64,000 nt of DNA from Haematococcus lacustris (lineage: Eukaryota; Chlorophyta; Chlorophyceae; Chlamydomonadales; Haematococcaceae), in the NCBI GenBank assembly GCA_030144725.1, contig JASKMD010000014.1, forward strand, positions 2,045,646 through 2,109,645, read 5' to 3'. Below, piece after piece: positions 8,796-32,212 of this stretch. The translations under genes were made by a program, and so were the position numbers. Position 1 is the first letter of the stretch. Every line of letters starts with the position of its first letter. Below the pieces are notes generated by a model, which saw only the letters and a program-made list of their open reading frames with translations, was not told the origin of the DNA and did no database searches.

Positions 8796-9621
8796 CTACA
8801 TCGTGCTCGGCGCAACGCGACGAGTCGAAAGAGCATAGTGAAGTTGGTCAACGTCCAAGGTCGGCGGTACAGGACGATGGTGAAGACGGCTACGGTGTTT
8901 GTGTTTGCTTGCCTGATTGTGCTTCTCCCGGGAAATGCTGCAACCTTTTGGGACCGACTCATAAACGTGGCCGACACGACAGTGGCAACAGGACAGGACC
9001 CCTTGGGGGCGGTGACCGGCCCTGCGTGGGTCGAGCGTGACATGATAGGATCATTCCCAACTGAGTTCGCACATTTACAAGTATGCAATCGGCCTCAAAT
9101 GACTCGAACGCCTCAAATGGCCTGGTTTCCCATTACGTATTCCCGCTCGAGCCTAAATGGACGAGACGCGGAAATGCCAATGTCTGTATGCTACCACCAG
9201 GTCGACAACAAAACCCAGGAGACGCAAGCTCTGCAGGACGCCATAAGACAACCAGACAGAAGGCACAGGAACGCTATTCCCCAGCTCGCCAAGAAAGGTA
9301 TCTGCTGCATCGACAGAGGTCCGTGCACCTGTGCCCAGTGCTACACTACAAGGAGCAGCAACTGGCTAGCTACCAGCACCAAGCACCCACACACCCACAG
9401 CAACCAACCAGAGGACGAACTGCCCAATGACCAGCCCAGGCCGCCGCGGGAGCCTACCTTGCATGCTTTACATGCTGACCTGCTGCCCCGCACCAGGCAC
9501 CCACACACCCACAGCAACCAAACAGAGGATGAACAGCCCCATGACCAGCCCAGGCCGCTGCGGGGGACACCCTTACATGCTTCCCATGCTGACCTGCTGC
9601 CCCTCACAGAGTTGCATGTCA

Positions 9622-12130
9622 CAGAGATGCCAACTGACCATGCTGACATGCAGGATGACAATAAACATGGCGCCCAGACCCGCCACCACCTGCCAGCCCT
9701 GACCGCTACAGCCTTGCATGACCAGCTGGCTGTCACAGAGATGCCAACTAACCATGCTGACATGCAGGCTGACGTTAGACATGGCACCCAACCCCACCAC
9801 CACTTGCCAGCCCTGACCGCTACAGACTTGCATGGCCAGCTGGCTGTCACAGAGATGCCACCTAACCATGCTGACATGCAGGCTGACAATAGACATGGCG
9901 CCCAGCCCCACCACCACCTGCCAGCCCTGACCGCTACAGCCTTGCAGGACCAGCTGGCTGTCACAGAGATGCCAACTGACCATGCTGACATGCAGGCTGA
10001 CAATAGACATGGCGCCCAGCCCCACCACCACCTGCCAGCCCTGACCGCTACAGACTTGCATGGCCAGCTGGCTGTCACAGAGATGCCAACTGACCATGCT
10101 GACATGCAGGCTGACAATAGACATGGCGCCCAGCCCCACCACCACCTGCCAGCCCTGACCGCTACAGCCTTGCATGACCAGCTGGCTGTCACAGAGATGC
10201 CAACTAACCATGCTGACATGCAGGCTAACAAAAGACATGACGCCCAACCCCACCACCACCTGCCAGCCCTGACCGCTACAGACTTGCATGGCCAGCTGGC
10301 TGTCACAGAGATGCCACCTAACCATGCTGACATGCAGGCTGACAATAGACATGGCGCCCAGCCCCAACACCACCTGCCAGCCCTGACCGCTACAACCTTG
10401 CATGACCAGCTGGCTGTCACAGAGATGCCACCTGACCATGCTGACATGCAGGCTGACAATAGACATGGCGCCCAGCCCCACCACCACCTGCCAGCCCTGA
10501 CCGCTACAGCCTTGCATGACCAGCTGGCTGTCACAGAGATGCCAACTGACCATGCTGACATGCAGGCTGACAATAGACATGGCGCCCAGCCCCACCACCA
10601 CCTGCCAGCCCTGACCGCTACAGACTTGCATGGCCAGCTGGCTGTCACAGAGATGCCACCTAACCATGCTGACATGCAGGCTGACAATAGACATGGCGCC
10701 CAGCCCCACCACCACCTGCCAGCCCTGACCGCTACAGCCTTGCATGGCCAGCTGGCTGTCACAGAGATGCCACCTAACCATGCTGACATGCAGGCTGACA
10801 ATAGACATGGCGCCCAGCCCCACCACCACCTGCCAGCCCTGACCGCTACAACCTTGCATGACCAGCTGGCTGTCACAGAGATGCCAACTAAACATGCTGA
10901 CATGCAGGCTGACATTAGACATGGCACCCAGCCCCACCACCACCTGCCAGCCCTGACCGCTACAGCCTTGCATGACCAGCTGGCTGTCACAGAGACGCCA
11001 CCTAACCATGCTGACATGCAGGCTGACAATAGACATGGCGCCCAGCCCCACCACCACCTGCCAGCCCTGACCGCTACAGCCTTGCATGACCAGCTGGCTG
11101 TCACAGAGATGCCAACTAACCATGCTGACATGCAGGCTGACATTAGACATGGCGCCCAGCCCCACCACCACCTGCCAGCCTTGACCGCTACAGCCTTGCA
11201 TGACCAGCTGGCTGTCACAGAGATGCCACCTGACCATGCTGACATGCAGGCTGACAATAGACATGGCGCCCAGCCCCACCACCACCTGCCAGCCCTGACC
11301 GCTACAGCCTTGCATGACCAGCTGGCTGTCACAGAGATGCCACCTAACCATGCTGACATGCAGGCTAACAATAGACATGACGCCCAACCCCACCACCACC
11401 TGCCAGCCCTGACCGCTACAGACTTGCTTGGCCAGCTGGCTGTCACAGAGATGCCACCTAACCATGCTGACATGCAGGCTGACAATAGACATGGCGCCCA
11501 GCCCCACCACCACCTGCCAGCCCTGACCGCTACAGCCTTGCATGACCAGCTGGCTGTCACAGAGATGCCAACTAACCATGCTGACATGCAGGCTAACAAT
11601 AGACATGACGCCCAACCCCACCACCACCTGCCAGCCCTGACCGCTACAGACTTGCTTGGCCAGCTGGCTGTCACAGAGATGCCACCTAACCATGCTGACA
11701 TGCAGGCTGACAATAGACATGGCGCCCAGCCCCACCACCACCTGCCAGCCCTGACCGCTACAGCCTTGCATGACCAGCTGGCTGTCACAGAGATGCCAAC
11801 TGACCATGCTGACATGCAGGCTGACAATAGACATGGCGCCCAGCCCCACCACCACCTGCCAGCCCTGACCGCTACAGACTTGCATGGCCAGCTGGCTGTC
11901 ACAGAGATGCCACCTAACCATGCTGACATGCAGGCTGACAATAGACATGGCGCCCAGCCCCACCACCACCTGCCAGCCCTGACCGCTACAGACTTGCATG
12001 GCCAGCTGGCTGTCACAGAGATGCCACCTAACCATGCTGACATGCAGGCTGACATTAGACATGGCGCCCAGCCCCACCACCACCTGCCAGCCCTGACCGC
12101 TACAACCTTGCATGACCAGCTGGCTGTCAC
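9622..12130. repeat. 22 tandem 114-bp units in the LINE 5' region
   Basis: Twenty-two units of 114 bp differ mainly by base substitutions and keep the length exactly. In frame 0 each would encode 38 residues (LAVTEMP..., NHADMQAD.RHGAQ, PHHHLPALTATA). Two related partial units with a different flank (HPHTHSNQ type) precede it (9380-9600) and one follows (about 12140-12235). The array is open in two minus-strand frames too, because 114 is a multiple of 3, so openness is not evidence of translation. Position ahead of ORF1 suggests promoter-like monomers, as in some mammalian L1 5' UTRs, or a repetitive protein domain. Confidence 0.92.
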
Positions 12131-12591
12131 AGAAATGCCAGGGACAACCTTGCATGTTCTCCATGCTGACCTGATGCCCTGCACCAGGTACTCACACACC
12201 TGTAGCAACCAACTAGAGGACAAGCCTAACACCACCCTGGCCTACACACGCCCACATCCTCCCACTAACAAACACAGATCAATGACGGTGACAAAAAGGG
12301 TGGGAATATCAACACCCCCCAACGCCACCACTCCTCTAACCCCGTTTGAAGTTTTCACACACTGGACCCACAGCATAGCTACCATCCCTAGGAAAGCGAT
12401 ACGCAACCAGAATGACACCATAGCATGGACGCGAAGGCCCAAATGGGTCTCACACCGAAACACGAATATGAACACTAATACAAGCACGAACGTATACATT
12501 AACAGGCAGATACTCTGCACTACACCGGACCCAACCTGTGACCCTACGCCCTGTGCTGAACGCATGCTCACGCCGCACGCTCCAGTTAACA

Positions 12592-15500
12592 ATGGCGGAG
12601 CGGAGAAAAGCACCCGCCGGATTCGGGAAGCTATCCTCACAGGAGGCACGCACGGACGCAGTAAGTCACGGCGCATCTGTCACCTGACCAGATCTACAGC
12701 TGACATCTCGATGCCTGTCCCGCTGCACACAGAAGCCTGGGAAGGGGGGGTCCTCTTGGCAGCCACGCCACGGCAGGGCATGATCCCGATAGAGCCGCCG
12801 CCGGTATACAGCACGGTCAGCGTCAACCTGGCAGCGACTCGCTGCATCAACTTGCCTGCAGCTGACCCTTCTCATCCCGAACCGGATGATATTGCCTCCA
12901 CTCTGCACAGCGTCAGCACCACGCTCTTCGGAGTGATCCCGAATTCACTGCTTACCACAGGGCTGGACAGCTCCATCGCCCCAGGGGCAACATTCGACAT
13001 CAGCATTGCAGGCCATTGCCTGCATGTGCTAGACTCAGCAGGCCGGTCAGCCCTTAGCCCCAACCTCCACCGGTGCACCACACCGGAGGCGTTAGTGCTA
13101 TCTCTTACCACGCTGGCAAAGGACGCAGCCCCAGCCCTAACCATCATCAACACTAGTCACTCTACCTCCCGCTACACACCATCCCGCAACCTCACAGCCA
13201 CCAGATGCGCAGTCACCTTCACATGCTCAGCACCAGCTGAGCAGTACCGGGAGGCCATGCAGCAGGCTCTCATGCTTGGCCGCAAGGTGCACAACTTCAC
13301 CCACCTTCTTAAGGGAGGCACAGTGCGCTACGGGGGGGCAGCAGCCTGCCAGGTGACAGGCAGGACCCTGGACAGCAGCAGCATAGTGTGCATAGCCGCG
13401 ATCGAGTATGGCCCGCTGTGGCAGTCACAGGGAATCCCAGACCTACGGCACGCCCCCCTTGCAGAGCAGGTGCAGACCCTGATGCAGCTGACAGGGACAA
13501 GCCTTACCAAGACTCATGCAGGCAACCTCACCACACCTGCGGAGACAGCAACCTTCCTGTCCCGCGCCAGCCTGGAAGCTGCCCGGCTGGACTGCCTAGC
13601 TGTGCGAGTGCGATCAGCTGGTGACAACAAGGTGCTGATCCAGAGCAACAGCCAGGCCATACAGCAGGCCAATGCCAGCCTGGTCAACAGCAATGGGGAG
13701 TTGAAGGGGCACACCCAGCTCCTCGTGCCCAACCTCTTCTGCATCACACTTCGCCCCGAGCGACAGCCAGGTCAGCAGTACAGCCTCAACGTGGACGGCA
13801 TTCCCCCCGAGCGGCGCTAGGATACTGCAGCCCTCAGCACTGTGCTCATTGCCATACACACCAACATAGGAGTGGGCATAGGCAAGCTTTTGAAGGCCCC
13901 AGCTCTTGCGTCAGTGGTATCACAGAACCCGGGCCTACGCAACAGCCTAGTAGACAGCATCAGGTTTCTGGCCTTCACCGGAGCAGAAGTGGGATTCCAC
14001 GCGGCCATCACCAACCCCACCCATGTCTTCACCACAGCCTCAGGGCAGGCTCTAGCTCATGCCACGACAGCGGAGCTGCGAGGCACTAGGCCACGCGAAA
14101 ACCAGCTGCTCATGGCTGACAATGCCTCCCTTGCCCTAGTATCTCTGTCCCTGGCCTGCACACCAGAGGTAGGCACCATCAAAGCCGAGGGAATGACCCT
14201 CAGCATCTCAGTGGGCTTCCGTCGGTCACCTCCACCTGACCGCTCTACGGCAGCCTCCATCCTAGCTACAGCAGCTGGCGCGGTGCAGTCCGGCATCACC
14301 CTGCCCCCCCCCGCAGGCTGTGAGGGCATACACACTAAGCCCCTCTCCCTAGTAAAGATCACTGAGCTACCCACCGCAACCCTCCTCCCCAACCTGGTGC
14401 ATATCTTCAAGCACACCATACCAACAGCCCTCAGCCTGCCAGGTGCCACCCAAACACGCCATGCTCTTGTGGTGGCCGAGCAGGACAGCACCTACGCTGA
14501 CCTCCTTGAGGGCCTCAGCACTCTGGATGACTCCACCATCGATGCAGCCGTGCAGCAGGCCCTGCCAAGCAGTGCGCCTGCAGCCAGCTCCGGCAGAGAC
14601 ATGGGCAGGGGACCAGGCAGGGGCGTCAGCAGCAAGGGCAGAGGAAGGGCATCAGACAGCGGCAATGCCCGCCAGCCCCAACAGCCGACTCAGGTCGCAT
14701 GGGCTAGGCATGAAGGGAACCCTGCAGGCCACGCGCCTGAGGACGAAGACCACCTTGGTACCATGGATGAGCTCTTGCGACAGGTAAGCGGGACAGAACC
14801 CGCAACTCACCCACACTCAGGACAGCCCCATCCGAGGACTATCCCATTAGGCCATTATGCCCACCACCATAACATCCTACTGTGCCATACCCACAATGAC
14901 CCCTCACCTGACCACAGGCATCCCGACCCCCACCTGCACCCATCCCTCAGCCAGAAGGGCTCAATGGAGGTGAGGCGTAATGAGAATGGCCGCTGCACAC
15001 CCACCCTATCCACCAGCACCCCATGCCATAAATATACAAATATCCTGTGCGCAGGACGGCCAGTAGCCGCAACCCCTGGCGCGATGGATGCGAACCCTAC
15101 AGCCCAGGCTACGAGCTACCAGCTAGGGGCAAGTATCATGGTATGTAGTAGAAGTGCGCCACTACCAAACACCCACCCTAGTAGAGCAGGCAAGGGTACA
15201 CCAGCCAGCCGCCCTAAGCACACCTTTGGATCCACCACTAGCAATGCTCAGCAACTCTCTGCCCCCCTACTCAACTACAATGATCCCAACCGCTGCCATC
15301 TGATGCACAGGACCCACCCCAAGCAGGCGGTACCACGGGCACCGCGCACCTGCCTGGGGAGGAGCTCTCGAACCTCCCAGGACGCACTATGCCTGGTGCG
15401 TACGGCTGCCCAAGCAGATATGCATGCATGGGTTAGGATGAGAACACACTATACACAAAACCACAACACTACCTCTTCGATACCCCTATGCTACACGCCA

Positions 15501-16263
15501 TGGGCTGCAGGTGCTAGCGAAGATAACCTGCCACAGACCATGGCTGGCGGCGCCATCAACCCGGTAAGGGACCAGGGTGTTAACACACAACCCCACCCCA
15601 ACCTCAACCCTCTAGTTACCATGCACAATCATACCAGAGCTGAGCATCTACCCAAAGCAGGCACCCAATGGGACAATGCCGCTGTTTGCCATCCCCCGCA
15701 CAGGTCTTCACCCCATTCACAACAAGGGACCAGGCTGGAACAGGGGAGGGGTACCCACCCCTTCCTAGCCACACACCTTCCCTGCCAGGTGGGCCGAGAC
15801 AAACCACTACACGACATTGCTATCAAACGCAACATGCCACGACGACACACGCAATGTGCCGCAGGCACTACTGGAGGCCTGGTGTGGGGTGCTCGGAGGG
15901 TGGCAGCAGATGCTCGAGACCCCCTGGCCGCACCACTCAGTGCCGAGAGAGCGGCACAGCGACCTCGCATGAGTACAGTGCACCTGGCCAGCAGCCGCAG
16001 CCTAGAGCAGCAGCTCACCGCGGCAGGAACACCCAGCCTGGAGACCGGACCCCTCCCAGCGTCAGAGGACGCTAAGATGGCGGACGGGGAGGTGAGCCAC
16101 GTCCTCCCTACACCCATGCACAGTTGCACATACAACCACACTAGACCACAGCAACCACGACACACCCCCATGGCAACAACCACCATGCGGAACACGACAC
16201 TGTACAGTGCCACCTGCCTGACCACAGGTTACCCAGGAGAATGGGGAGGCCGGCAGCAGCTAA
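12592..16263 (+). CDS. LINE ORF1 (gag-like), read as nine spliced exons
   Basis: Exons: 12592-12660, 12777-14783, 14918-14969, 15055-15140, 15311-15395, 15511-15563, 15704-15788, 15865-16091 and 16228-16263. Every border is GT/AG and the phases agree at all eight joins; stop TAA is at 16261-16263. It starts MAERRKAPAGFG. The main exon has a long folded-protein-like region, then a Gly/Arg-rich stretch (GRDMGRGPGRG...), a common RNA-binding feature of LINE ORF1 proteins. The small exons are Pro/Gly/Ala-rich (ASRPPPAPIPQPEGLNG, GRPVAATPGAMDANP, GTAHLPGEELSNLPG) and give more protein-like text than the unspliced frame. One in-frame TAG at 13818-13820 (after PPERR) interrupts exon 2 and may be a C-to-T lesion of a CAG codon. 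The first intron is the least certain. No zinc knuckle seen. Confidence 0.62.
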
Positions 16264-16715
16264 GGGGACAAGGCCACACAGACTATGGTTGCATTGACAC
16301 GGCATCGACCCATAGGGGCCATGGCCCGCAGGACTTGTTAAAGGCCCACTCGAGGGACCTCAGCTTGCACAGCAAGGCCAGCACCACAAGGGAGGACTGG
16401 TGCCCAAGCAGAACTGGAAACCACAGTGCGCATACTACCAGCCACAGTACCAGCCCACACCAACCACATGCACTAGCCCCGGCAGCCCCCACAATGCTTC
16501 AGAGCCGCACAGCCCGTAGACAACCAGAATGCTGTAGTGATAATCATGCACTGGCGGTAGTCTTCGCCAGACGTAGCAGACGACCCATGCACAGTGAACC
16601 TGTGAACTGTAAGGGGGCCCGCCACATTGTTGCCAATCTGCGACCCCCCATGGGGCATGCGGAGTGGGAACCCCTTCACAACACCCAGACATGCCCTGTG
16701 ATAGACATCGTCACC

Positions 16716-19700
16716 ATGGGCATCATCATGTGGATAATGATACGAACTGGGCGTCACCACCCCCAGCTACCCACCAAAATAGAGTCACACAAATGCATGA
16801 GAAAACAACGCAAGAAACTCACTAAACTACAAGCCACGACCCACACCACTGCCTACAACTGGCTACACAATATAGACGGTACCAGCAGCGGGTGGGTAAC
16901 CATAGGACACCTGGTCCACCAGACCCACACCTACCTAATGGGAAGGACTAACAACAAAACTTACACCATAAACCAGTACAACACAACCATCCAGGCATAC
17001 GTCACCTACAGTATTAACCCACACACGACCTACACCATCGACAACATTAAGAGGCTGACCATGGGAGCCATTAACTACCTCACACACATCGGCTGGCTGC
17101 TCTTGGCAGCAGGTGACATAGAACCAAACCCTGGCCCTGAGGGACCCTACTTTGAGAAACAAGTAGCCCACCATTGCCAAATCCATGCCCTGAACATGGT
17201 AGTAGGTCACCCATGGCTAAGTAACCAAGACCTGGCCAACTTCCACACCTCGGAACTCAACGCGCGACAAGGCGACCAGATGTGGGCGCTAGCTAGAGAC
17301 GAAGAAGGCGCGTGCAACGACACAGTCGTTAATCTCTACCTGACATCACACTACGGCCTCAGCACACACACAGTGGCGCACCTTAAAACTGGAAGGGACT
17401 GGTCGACCCGCCACCTCGACGCCCTGGCCGAAGCCCATGGCATCACCGCCTTCCTATGCAAAGCCCCTGCCCATAGCATGGCGATCAGGAAACACAACGA
17501 TACATGGTACCTCCTTGACTCCGAAGCGACGACCCCTACACCGCTGCAGGTTACCGGCAATCGCGCGTACCATGCAGCCTGCGAGATACAAACTATTACC
17601 ACTATCTCGCACCCCACAGCAGCTATGACAGCGGCACGCACCAGGGCCAGGCTTGGGCCTATCATCAGCACCACACGTCACACCTTCACAGCGGCAGCGG
17701 TATGCATCGGGGCAAGGCCAGGGCCCACCAACCCCCGGAAAACGCATATGCCCTACTGGGAAAGCCAACACAAGAAGTGTTGCTTGGTGCACGCCATTAA
17801 CATGGCCATGGGAGAACCAATGATTAACCCCGAAGACGTCATCACCCACTGCAAAACACTAGACACGCACATCCAAGACCTGGCCACCAAGGCAAGGCAA
17901 GAACATAGGCAAATCCCACTACACAACAATCTCCCACACATCTACCACGACCAAGGCAACTTTACCATATCCACCATCAACCACTACCTATACCACTACC
18001 ATAAAGACCTACACCTATGCCCAACAACACAGGAACTACCCTACGGCAGCATCACTCGAGAGCTCCTCACTGGGACCACCGGCAAGCCGGACAGCCACAC
18101 CAACACAGTAGCTGCCATCCTTTTCACCGACAACCACGCCACCACCATCCGCCACATGGACAACGCCTGGCACTGGCTGGACTCGGAACGGGGCCACCCA
18201 CAGCGGCTGGACACCCCGGCAGCCTGGAGTCAGCTGCATGGCAGGCTTGTCCAAATCAGAAAAGGGACCGCGCAAAACACCAACCTCATTGAGCCCTTAT
18301 GCTGGCTGGCTGACCCTACCACCCGCGCCACAACGGAGCAACTGGAACAACACCTACGCACCACCTATGTGGACCTCACGAACTTAGGCCGGGATACACC
18401 CGCACACAGCCCCCATGCAGATCGGCCAACACCCAGAACCGACACCTCACAACAAACGAGCACCAAGCGCAAAGACACGCCACAAGAGGATGCCCACCCA
18501 CCGGCTAAGCCCACCCAGCAGCCGCCAAACCGCCAAGCAGCACGCACGGTTACCCTTCCTACCACGCAACGCAACACTACACGGCCCGCATCATCACGTC
18601 CCACCAGTTGCAGCACCATACGGCGACCTAAACCCAGGGCTCTGCCTAGAGACACGCACACGCAGACTTCAATGTACCAATACCTCAATGTAGCCCCCAC
18701 CCTGCCCCCTACCGCCTACCAAACAGCTAACCCACCTGAAGACACAACAGCCCAAAGCCAACGCAATACCCTCCCAAGCCAGATGCCACAGCCCACACCT
18801 AGCCGGACAACCATCACCCTCACTACCTTCAACGTCAGAGGCCTCCACAGGTCCAGAAAAGATGTCCTACACTTAGTGCACACGCAGAGCCCGGACATTC
18901 TGATTCTCACTGAGACTATGACCCAACCAAAGAGCAATAACCCCAGCTGCGGATGGCTAAAACGAGTTATGCCCAACTATATTGTCCACCGCCACCGAGG
19001 TCACAGCGAGGTACTCATAGGCATCAAGCACGACCTTGCTATCCAGACGCACGCCACTATGCTACCGCCGTGCACAGACGCGGAAGTAAACACTCGATGC
19101 GTGATCCTGACCCTACGCCAGCACAAATGTGAAGAGCTTACCATCGTAGCCACGTACTGGCCCTCAGGAGACAACGACGACGCGATCCCGCTGCGAGAGA
19201 AAATGCAGGAACACATACGAACAACCACAGAACGCGCTCCCGGATCACTCATTCTGGCGGGAGACATCAACGCCACGATGAGAAAAGAAGATCGATATGG
19301 ACACACCGAGTATACACAAGACCGCATGATGAGGAAGTTCGCTGACAAGCTGCTCCTGTTTGAGGCCGACCCCGGCGACCGGGCCTGGACCTACCAACAA
19401 CCACACTGCAACAGCCGCATCGACGCCATCCTGACGCGCGATGCTCGACACGGATCAGAGCACCGCACCCACGTCGACACGCACGCGTACCTCAGTGACC
19501 ACAGACCACTCACCGCCACCCTAACCACAGCCAGACTGGGCATAAACCTAGCAGCCATACGCAAACCCCAGCAGCAATGCCATACCGTCCTCACCACCCC
19601 CATTACCTACAACGACAGGGAAGCCTACCGCCTAGCTGTGCAACAGCCCAGCTCAGGCGCCCCACAGCTACATGCACGACTGACAGCCTACCTGGCACCC

Positions 19701-19774
19701 ATGTACACAGAAGCCACCCACTTCCTGGCCACGCTAGACAAGGCAAACCCACACCAGCCACAACGTCTAGCACA
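16716..19774 (+). CDS. LINE ORF2: 2A-like motif, two Josephin-like proteases, AP endonuclease (3' end in gap)
   Basis: At least 1019 codons, open into the gap. The start at 16716 (MGIIMWIMIRTG) is the first ATG after the ORF1 stop that leads into protein-like sequence, but the frame is open further upstream. Residues about 120-141 form a 2A-like peptide ending DIEPNPGP. Residues 146-290 and 345-510 are two related domains with a Josephin-type layout: HHCQIHALNM with C154, then HSMAIRKHNDTWYLLDSE with H253 and D268; and CCLVHAINM with C356, then NHATTIRHMDNAWHWLDSE with H474 and D489. The 15-residue His-to-Asp spacing equals that in ataxin-3-type Josephin domains. A Pro/Thr-rich linker follows. 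Residues about 700-935 are an AP-type endonuclease: FNVRGL (N706), ILTET (E733), GDINA, SRIDAIL, SDHRPL (H929). The reverse transcriptase is not visible. Confidence 0.8.
17061..17138 (+). other. 2A-like ribosome-skipping motif
   Basis: The frame reads GAINYLTHIGWLLLAAG followed by DIEPNPGP, matching the D-(V/I)-E-x-N-P-G-P consensus after a hydrophobic Leu-rich helix. The bond normally skipped is between Gly (17133-17135) and Pro (17136-17138). 2A-like sequences are known near the N-termini of some non-LTR retrotransposon ORFs. Skipping here would release the protease/endonuclease protein from everything upstream. Confidence 0.8.
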
Positions 19775-20274
19775 NNNNNNNNNNNNNNNNNNNNNNNNNN
19801 NNNNNNNNNNNNNNNNNNNNNNNNNNNNNNNNNNNNNNNNNNNNNNNNNNNNNNNNNNNNNNNNNNNNNNNNNNNNNNNNNNNNNNNNNNNNNNNNNNNN
19901 NNNNNNNNNNNNNNNNNNNNNNNNNNNNNNNNNNNNNNNNNNNNNNNNNNNNNNNNNNNNNNNNNNNNNNNNNNNNNNNNNNNNNNNNNNNNNNNNNNNN
20001 NNNNNNNNNNNNNNNNNNNNNNNNNNNNNNNNNNNNNNNNNNNNNNNNNNNNNNNNNNNNNNNNNNNNNNNNNNNNNNNNNNNNNNNNNNNNNNNNNNNN
20101 NNNNNNNNNNNNNNNNNNNNNNNNNNNNNNNNNNNNNNNNNNNNNNNNNNNNNNNNNNNNNNNNNNNNNNNNNNNNNNNNNNNNNNNNNNNNNNNNNNNN
20201 NNNNNNNNNNNNNNNNNNNNNNNNNNNNNNNNNNNNNNNNNNNNNNNNNNNNNNNNNNNNNNNNNNNNNNNNNN
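19775..20274. other. Assembly gap (500 N)
   Basis: Exactly 500 N, the usual placeholder for a gap of unknown size. It removes the end of the LINE ORF2 and the element's 3' boundary. Confidence 1.
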
Positions 20275-20277
20275 TTA

Positions 20278-20632
20278 CACGCAGGGCAGATGTAACACAC
20301 TGCAGATCCTTCCCGTAGGAGCTATGAGCATACCCCAAAGCTAGGGCGCAGAAACCAGACGGATGCGTAGCAGCAACAAGCAGCAAATCGATCTCAAAAA
20401 CAGCATTATTGTATGCACGTGCACTACCGTCAGGGTGCAAGGAGTCACTGGTGCCAGGATACCGCGGAGGGGGGCAATGTTGACTTTAGCCCGTCCCTCG
20501 CAGGCCAAGCTGCGGAGCTGCACGCCGCAGCGGGGCGTCGCGGTTTGACCTCTTGGAGTTCAGTATACGCGACAAAAAGTGACGGTACATTTTCGAGAGC
20601 CATTTTACCTGACCTTGTGGGACCTGATCTTT
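20278..20632. repeat. Dispersed repeat, copy A (partner at 31786-32212)
   Basis: The stretch from CGCAGGGCAGATGTAACACA to TTTTACCTGACCTTGTGGGA is nearly identical to 31786-32212. Copy A lacks about 75 bp that copy B has between CTCAAAAACAGCA and CACGTGCACTACCG. Because copy A follows the LINE across the gap, it may be the LINE 3' UTR and copy B a 5'-truncated insertion; this is inference. Confidence 0.85.
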
Positions 20633-31165: not shown

Positions 31166-31785
31166 CATGGCCGTATCTCACCAACCGCGCAAAATCACGA
31201 ATTTTAGTTTCAACCCCCAATCTTACAATGCCTTCATTTGACTATGTACCAAGTCCGAGGCTCCGAATCTCAAAAATGCTGTTACTAATTTGCCTGAGTG
31301 TAGAGGGAGCAGGGAACAGATCAGGGAACAGCAAGGGCCGCAGAAGCCTTACCTTCAGCCGGTTTGCGATGAAGCCGGCCATGCGGGTCCACGGGGCAAG
31401 GCCAGCTGCAACCCGACCTGCCATAATCGCCGATCCTTTCTTACTACGCTGGCCGCGTCGGCCCATCGCTATTAATGGCCGCCAGTCTGCATCATTTGCG
31501 CCGCTGATGAACGCTGGTGGTAGCTTGGAGGAACCAGAACAATCGCATCTACTTTCGCAGCCTGGTGAGCGCGAGATGATGGGGTACTTTAGACATGAGC
31601 ATGCTAGGTATGTCTGGGCGTATGTATGGGTGATAATCTTAAGGATAACGCAATCAAAGTAGATGAAGTTCTTGGGGCAGACCGCTTGCATCTCCACATG
31701 AGGTCAGCACAGCGTTTGATGTAGTGCCTGCCCAGAAATGAGGTTTCAACTAAATGTAATTGCATGAGCCTCCCAACCTGCGCAG

Positions 31786-32212
31786 GGCAGATGTAACACA
31801 CTGCAGATCCTTCCCGTAGGAGCTATGAGCATACCCCAAAGCTAGGGCGCAGAAACCAGACGGATGCGTAGCAGCAACAAGCAGCAAATCGATCTCAAAA
31901 ACAGCACTGCAGATTTGCATGCCGGCACCCCATCACGGCACGCCGACCGACCGACTAGTGACCGCTCTACCTCGTTCGTCGTTGCGGCGTTGTTGTTTCA
32001 CGTGCACTACCGTCAGGGTGCAAGGAGTCCCTGGTGCCAGGATACCGCGGAGGGGGGCAACGTCGACTTTAGCCCGTCCCTCGCAGGCCAGGCTGCGGAG
32101 CACCACGCCGCAGCGGGGCGTCGCGGTTTGACCTCTTGGAGTGCAGTGTACGCGACAAAAAGTGACGGTACATTTTATCGAGCCATTTTACCTGACCTTG
32201 TGGGACCTGAGG
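31786..32212. repeat. Dispersed repeat, copy B
   Basis: Near-identical to 20278-20632 with an extra segment at about 31908-31998. It may be a 5'-truncated retrotransposon copy (see copy A). No coding potential seen. Confidence 0.85.

Follow-up and report, generated by a model that had tools for sequence, protein, structure and literature searches.

A Dualen-like element with a giant reading frame

We analyzed a stretch of 64,000 nucleotides from the Haematococcus lacustris genome (contig JASKMD010000014.1, positions 2,045,646 to 2,109,645 of the forward strand), which we refer to as the window. It contained one copy of a transposable element that, as judged by its domain content, is a Dualen-like long interspersed nuclear element (LINE) with 2 Josephin domains in tandem behind a 2A/StopGo-like motif. 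The coding frame of the window copy extended from the ATG at 8877 up to an assembly gap with a single stop in 3631 codons; the lone in-frame TAG was located at 13818-13820, and the frame was open from 13821 to the start of the gap at 19775. The features of this copy were the following:

8877..19774, plus strand: coding frame of the window copy, from the stop count; its 5' part matches protein P0033
8877..17096, plus strand: part resembling open reading frame 1 (ORF1-like), upstream of the 2A motif, with a hydrophobic, signal-like N terminus
9376..12140, plus strand: tandem repeats of 114 bp in 2 arrays, within the ORF1-like part
9617..12140, plus strand: the larger repeat array, 22 copies of 114 bp, in frame
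17097..17138, plus strand: 2A/StopGo-like motif LLLAAGDIEPNPGP, from the consensus and the same place in other loci
17142..17576, plus strand: Josephin domain 1 (Q149, C154, H253, D268; Ser after the His), from profile and predicted fold
17751..18239, plus strand: Josephin domain 2 (Q351, C356, H474, D489; Ala after the His), from profile and predicted fold
18240..18824, plus strand: linker between Josephin domain 2 and the endonuclease, usually less constrained than the domains, from the ratio of nonsynonymous to synonymous substitution rates (dN/dS)
18825..19502, plus strand: apurinic-like endonuclease (APE), PF03372, from the Pfam profile
19775..20274, no strand: assembly gap of 500 N

No reverse transcriptase (RT), PHD-like, RNase H or restriction-like endonuclease (RLE) sequence was found downstream of the gap within the window, unlike in 2 intact copies located elsewhere in the genome. 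In each of these, an uninterrupted frame some 4,500 codons long encoded, in this order, an ORF1-like part, the 2A motif, 2 successive Josephin domains, the APE, the RT, a PHD-like finger, the RNase H and the RLE. The APE domain (PF03372) was present in the window copy as well as in the intact copies, in which the RT belonged to PF00078, the RNase H matched PF00075 (5.8e-16 and 2e-16) and a restriction-like endonuclease domain was found. The preliminary description of the window, which had placed a tandem pair behind a 2A motif within a LINE, was supported. It was right that the product after the 2A motif carries both domains and the APE, but the product was drawn too small, as the intact copies add the RT, PHD-like, RNase H and RLE parts.

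The start of the ORF1-like part was an 85% match over 238 residues to the Haematococcus protein P0033, which is a protein of the element family, and the ORF1-like part therefore belongs to the element. A hydrophobic stretch resembling a signal peptide opened this part in all 3 copies inspected (window 8877-8933, L031 and L033), which is odd for a LINE ORF1. Repeats related to the 114-bp units were also observed in several other proteins of the element.

A search with PF02099 yielded at least 150 Josephin matches in the 308-Mb genome, a lower bound that counts domains rather than copies, since 150 of 800 candidates were scored and all 150 matched. Several of the matches were located in frames of more than 4,000 codons, and copies of 2 families could be read through without a stop. 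Furthermore, a 13.8-kb element was present in at least 4 near-identical copies on 4 contigs, which shared a 5' region (99.2% to 100% over 216 to 261 bases) and a 3' end (99.5% to 99.8% over 410 to 414 bases, with no match beyond) carrying a (CTT)n tail. In 2 of these 4 copies the element was flanked by repeats, of 13 and 12 bases, consistent with target-site duplications; no convincing ones were found around the other 2. Judging by its RT and by the 3' end that its copies share, which carries a tail of simple repeats, the element is a non-LTR retrotransposon, and by these sequence features it is one that moves. The Dualen group is defined by the joint presence of APE and RLE (PMC4640811), and it is because both occur in one element that we assign it as Dualen-like. 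It was also noted that proteins P0006 and P0020, which are labelled as originating from the bacterium Bosea sp., are pieces of this Haematococcus element, and the records that contain them probably include algal DNA.

Identity and conservation of the tandem Josephin domains

Each domain taken singly exceeded the Pfam cut-off of 26 for PF02099, domain 1 with 36.7 bits (E = 4.6e-9) and domain 2 with 47.2 bits (E = 2.7e-12), and the 2 domains together gave E = 6.1e-20, in agreement with the family proposed in the preliminary description. These matches are far beyond chance. Single-sequence phmmer searches against the PDB gave weak matches (0.044 to PaJOS and 0.3 to JOSD2), and profiles were used instead. 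Among the PDB structures present in the lists searched, all 18 Foldseek matches of the predicted model with E ≤ 0.001 were Josephin or Josephin-like, the best matches being Josephins and not an unrelated fold, and the structural neighbours included PaJOS and BpJOS, which are clippases according to their PDB titles.

Numbered from the ATG at 16716, the catalytic residues were C154/H253/D268 and C356/H474/D489, with a His-to-Asp spacing of 15 in both domains. The residues and the spacing were exactly those picked out in the preliminary description, as was the position of DIEPNPGP at 17115-17138. A Gln was located 5 residues N-terminal of each catalytic Cys (Q149 and Q351), as also seen in a profile alignment with the solved ataxin-3 and JOSD2 sequences. 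To these 2 proteins the Haematococcus domains are similar in fold and in the pattern of Gln, Cys, His and Asp/Asn, the Asn of ataxin-3 being an Asp in Haematococcus, whereas they differ in their tandem arrangement, in their location in a retroelement and in having no aromatic residue after the His.

For the comparison of residues we used 119 near-complete, non-independent domains with partial ones excluded, of which 100 were from Haematococcus (60 sequences) and 19 from relatives (17 sequences); the Haematococcus domains were assigned by domain type, not by rank in the protein, as 42 J1-type and 58 J2-type domains. The Cys, His and Asp were kept in 100 of the 100 Haematococcus domains, while the Gln was absent at its column in 24 of the 42 J1-type domains. 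Profiles and predicted model together show a tandem pair of Josephin-family domains with the predicted fold and the catalytic residues of the family.

The 2A/StopGo consensus D(V/I)ExNPGP was matched in the window and at other loci. We inspected the 30 best-scoring Josephin loci, a set biased to one family, and in 2 of them the 2A site fell in an N gap. The sequence D(V/I)EANPGP was located ahead of the Josephin domains in 27 of the 28 other readable Haematococcus loci, L012 being the locus without it, and 26 of these 27 loci were free of stops over the 440 codons examined. From the motif and its position we infer that ribosomes skip here.

Estimates of dN/dS were obtained for 23 sequences in a main run, and separately for the window, which like L022 was outside this run; in many of the wider pairs dS was saturated. 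When L002 and L005 were compared with L033_34, dN/dS was 0.10 and 0.07 for J1, 0.14 for J2 and 0.11 for the APE, as against 0.49 and 0.50 for the linker. The window compared with L031_32 gave about 0.14 for J1, 0.20 for J2, 0.09 for the APE and 0.30 for the linker. Less tidy values were obtained for the very close pair L002 and L005, in which few changes gave 0.47 for J1 and 1.22 for the linker, and for L031_32 against L033_34, in which the linker (0.24) was below J2 (0.30). Overall, the estimates show signs of selection on both Josephin domains. It was also noted that the APE of L031_32 was close to that of L023 (dS of 0.17), whereas J1 was far apart (dS of 2.9) and far more diverged than J2 and the APE. 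This difference suggests that families of the element have exchanged J1 together with the part upstream of it.

The protease slot in related elements

Relatives were taken from an RT search for which 120 of 198 proteins were listed. The range P0090 to P0139 included 49 proteins without a Haematococcus label, from jgi, ena, lgn and ncbi records plus one EukProt transcript, and 27 of the 49 were readable, with at least 300 residues ahead of the APE. Among the matches listed, 23 of these 27 had a protease of the ubiquitin/SUMO type in the corresponding position: a Josephin domain in 18 and OTU and/or Ulp1/C48 domains in 5. P0110, P0124 and P0132 gave weak hits, and the scan of the 27 readable relatives found no protease in the slot of P0096. 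The architecture of the window is thus shared as far as the protease slot is concerned, the tandem Josephin pair being only one form of it.

Of the 18 Josephin relatives, 5 carry this assignment in the precomputed annotation of Pfam, and P0109 and P0123 were above the cut-off when rescanned; the others were assigned with our own hidden Markov model, trained partly on them, and by the pattern of Gln, Cys, His and Asp, with P0121 containing a partial domain. The C48 domains of P0127 (2 stretches) and P0134 and the OTU domain of P0135 were above the Pfam cut-off, the OTU domains of P0134 and P0139 were below it, and P0105 was assigned solely through its similarity to P0139. The slot segments themselves were the source of the custom OTU and C48 profiles, so that the scores of these profiles are no independent proof. 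A polyprotein search with the Josephin domain of P0097 alone retrieved no protein besides P0097 itself.

Six relatives contained 2 proteases, one of these pairs being partial. The pairs were Josephin-Josephin in P0098, P0109 and P0123, a partial and a full Josephin in P0107, C48-C48 in P0127 and C48-OTU in P0134. In a tree of 45 of the 119 domains, which came with a long-branch warning and did not include J1 of P0109, the Haematococcus J1 domains grouped with J1 of P0123 and J1 of P0098 (99/96), which suggests an old tandem duplication of the Josephin domain. A 2A-like motif was identified in 5 of the 49 relatives, always ahead of the protease. P0107, P0127 and P0136 had 2 such motifs before the protease, the first of which reads NPGE in P0136.

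Two candidate features were rejected. One was a Gly-Gly processing site, which was unconserved among the Josephin-bearing relatives; the other was a ubiquitin-like C-terminal tail, the intact copies ending in RLRATRGGGG and RLRAIRKGGG and the relatives ending otherwise.

Between the PHD or RT and the RNase H, PCIF1_WW (PF12237), a domain of the cap-adenine methyltransferase PCIF1, exceeded the Pfam cut-off in P0096, P0105, P0107, P0110, P0134 and P0139, and matched P0127 and P0135 with scores under the cut-off. None of the 7 PCIF1_WW-region segments inspected contained the motif N/D/S-PP-F/Y/W/L/I, and 2 of them read EANPEY where PCIF1 reads EANPPF.

In the flanks of the window copy, the upstream segment 7300-7382 was a 95% match to the 3' end of the intact copy L032 and is perhaps the tail of another insertion. 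The sequence after the gap (20280-20627) recurred at 31781-32210 with 93% to 100% identity, and no element coding sequence was found there.

Possible function and significance

The explanation that we favour, and regard as narrowly probable, is that in this Dualen-like LINE the 2A motif releases a protease-replicase chain, and that the Josephin domains remove ubiquitin or a ubiquitin-like protein from proteins of the element or of the host, thereby protecting the retrotransposition machinery. One transcript would be translated, and many ribosomes would skip at NPG/P, so that the ORF1-like protein would be made separately from a protease-replicase chain some 2,900 residues long. The Josephin domains would then strip tags from this chain or from proteins of the host that come into contact with it, and the removal of tags would shield the machinery. 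Catalysis, a ubiquitin-type target and the protection of the machinery are inferred. The Josephin, OTU and Ulp1 families are all known to act on substrates of a single type, namely ubiquitin and ubiquitin-like proteins, and the main argument for such a target is that these 3 families swap in one slot.

The residue after the catalytic His weighs against a simple version of this explanation. An aromatic gatekeeper at this place marks the enzymes that cut after Gly-Gly, and the W126A change in JOSD2 abolished reactivity (PMC7391069). The residue was Ser in 42 of 42 J1-type and Ala in 58 of 58 J2-type domains, and the gatekeeper was thus found in none of the 100 Haematococcus domains, as compared to 3 of 19 in the relatives, where P0108, P0119 and P0128 form one clade. 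Where the slot holds OTU or C48 domains, an aromatic residue followed the presumed His in 7 of 7 domains as judged by eye (Y and F in P0127, W and F in P0134, F in P0135, F in P0139 and Y in P0105). The bacterial enzymes SnJos1 and SnJos2, which have no gatekeeper, cut ubiquitin chains slowly and left probes unreacted (PMC10643670), so that the Haematococcus domains may still be active. Since the gatekeeper is lost, the specificity is expected to differ from that of ataxin-3 and is likely altered in this version of the Josephin domain; we would expect slow chain cutting like that of SnJos1 and SnJos2, a different cut site within the tail, or action on a modifier whose end is not Gly-Gly. The Josephin family and the predicted fold are supported, whereas the term deubiquitinase-like used at first is weakened by the missing gatekeeper. 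Judging from the sequences, the domains most likely act on ubiquitin or a ubiquitin-like protein, and we have dropped the label ataxin-3-like deubiquitinase.

It is unlikely, in our estimate, that the Josephin domains are instead polyprotein proteases that separate APE, RT, RNase H and RLE from one another by cutting the chain of about 2,900 residues, in the manner of viral papain-fold proteases. Many enzymes are joined in one uninterrupted chain, and all 7 Haematococcus entries among the matches listed had a Gly-Gly motif in the linker between APE and RT, but the linker motif (Gly-Gly, any residue, His or Arg, aromatic or His) was present in just 6 of the 18 Josephin-bearing relatives, and the slot also holds OTU and Ulp1 enzymes that retain the aromatic residue. 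We know of no cleavage product of the chain. The PRO/DUB of turnip yellow mosaic virus both processes a polyprotein and stabilizes the polymerase, which keeps this explanation in play. Loss of the gatekeeper could also allow the S2 pocket to accept other sequences (PMC7391069). The same loss would suit a role that we find quite unlikely, namely that the domains act on a modifier without Gly-Gly (ATG8-like or UFM1-like) or clip ubiquitin irreversibly upstream of Gly-Gly: families that cut UFM1 and ATG8 are without the aromatic motif, as is RavZ, which cuts one residue early (PMC7391069; PMC12751079), and the clippases PaJOS and BpJOS are structural neighbours. However, PaJOS has a Phe after the His in our alignment, so that loss of the gatekeeper alone is not a mark of Josephin clippases, and SnJos1 and SnJos2 cut ordinary chains without it (PMC10643670).

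A role of one domain or of the pair as catalytically inactive binders of ubiquitin-type tags, there to recruit or mask, would agree with the loss of the Gln in the J1-type domains and of the gatekeeper throughout, but is very unlikely given the unchanged Cys, His and Asp, which would be needless for binding. The gap and the stop in the window copy might suggest a host Josephin fragment fused by chance to one copy, or an assembly artefact. Such an origin is hardly credible in view of the number of genomic Josephin matches, several in very long frames, the stop-free copies of 2 families, the relatives elsewhere and the signs of selection, and is refuted by the intact copies.

Returning to the favoured explanation, we tentatively extend it to a broader proposal, which we hold with less than even confidence: Dualen-type LINEs may carry, behind a translational switch, an exchangeable cassette for erasing tags, which is a Josephin, an OTU or a Ulp1 domain and in many cases a pair, selected as a counter-defence against ubiquitin/SUMO control, and the Josephin branch may have shed its gatekeeper and gained a new specificity.

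Cysteine proteases and 2A motifs are each already known from LINEs. Dualen/RandI elements, reportedly described by Kojima and Fujiwara in 2005, likewise combine APE, RT, RNase H and RLE and are said to contain a cysteine protease; the Haematococcus element stands apart in its tandem Josephin domains after a 2A motif, in having just one frame, about 4,500 codons long, and in its PHD-like finger. Motifs of the 2A type inside LINE reading frames are said to occur in L1Tc and others (Heras, 2006, and Odon, 2013, both cited in PMC11512398; Odon, 2013, also in PMC12846837), whereas in Haematococcus the motif separates the ORF1-like part from the protease-replicase part; we know of no Josephin domain in such elements. 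NeSL/Utopia elements are also LINEs with an N-terminal cysteine protease of a family that cuts ubiquitin-like proteins, but theirs is Ulp1, they have the RLE only, and no tandem pair is noted in the excerpt (PMC4640811). The bacterial PaJOS, BpJOS and PcJOS are similar in fold, and SnJos1 and SnJos2 also have no gatekeeper (PMC10643670), but all of these are bacterial proteins, and PaJOS has the Phe. In the open-licence literature, with the original Dualen paper outside this scope, we found no report of a Josephin domain in a retrotransposon and no match to the tandem pair, the single giant frame or the slot shared by 3 families; one paper retrieved deals, according to its title, with primate retrocopies of the ataxin-3 gene.

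The interchange of 3 families of the ubiquitin world in one slot turns the question of why LINEs carry cysteine proteases into a testable one, namely whether LINEs fight the ubiquitin/SUMO control of the host, and the Josephin domains without a gatekeeper provide a natural set in which to study cut-site choice by this family.
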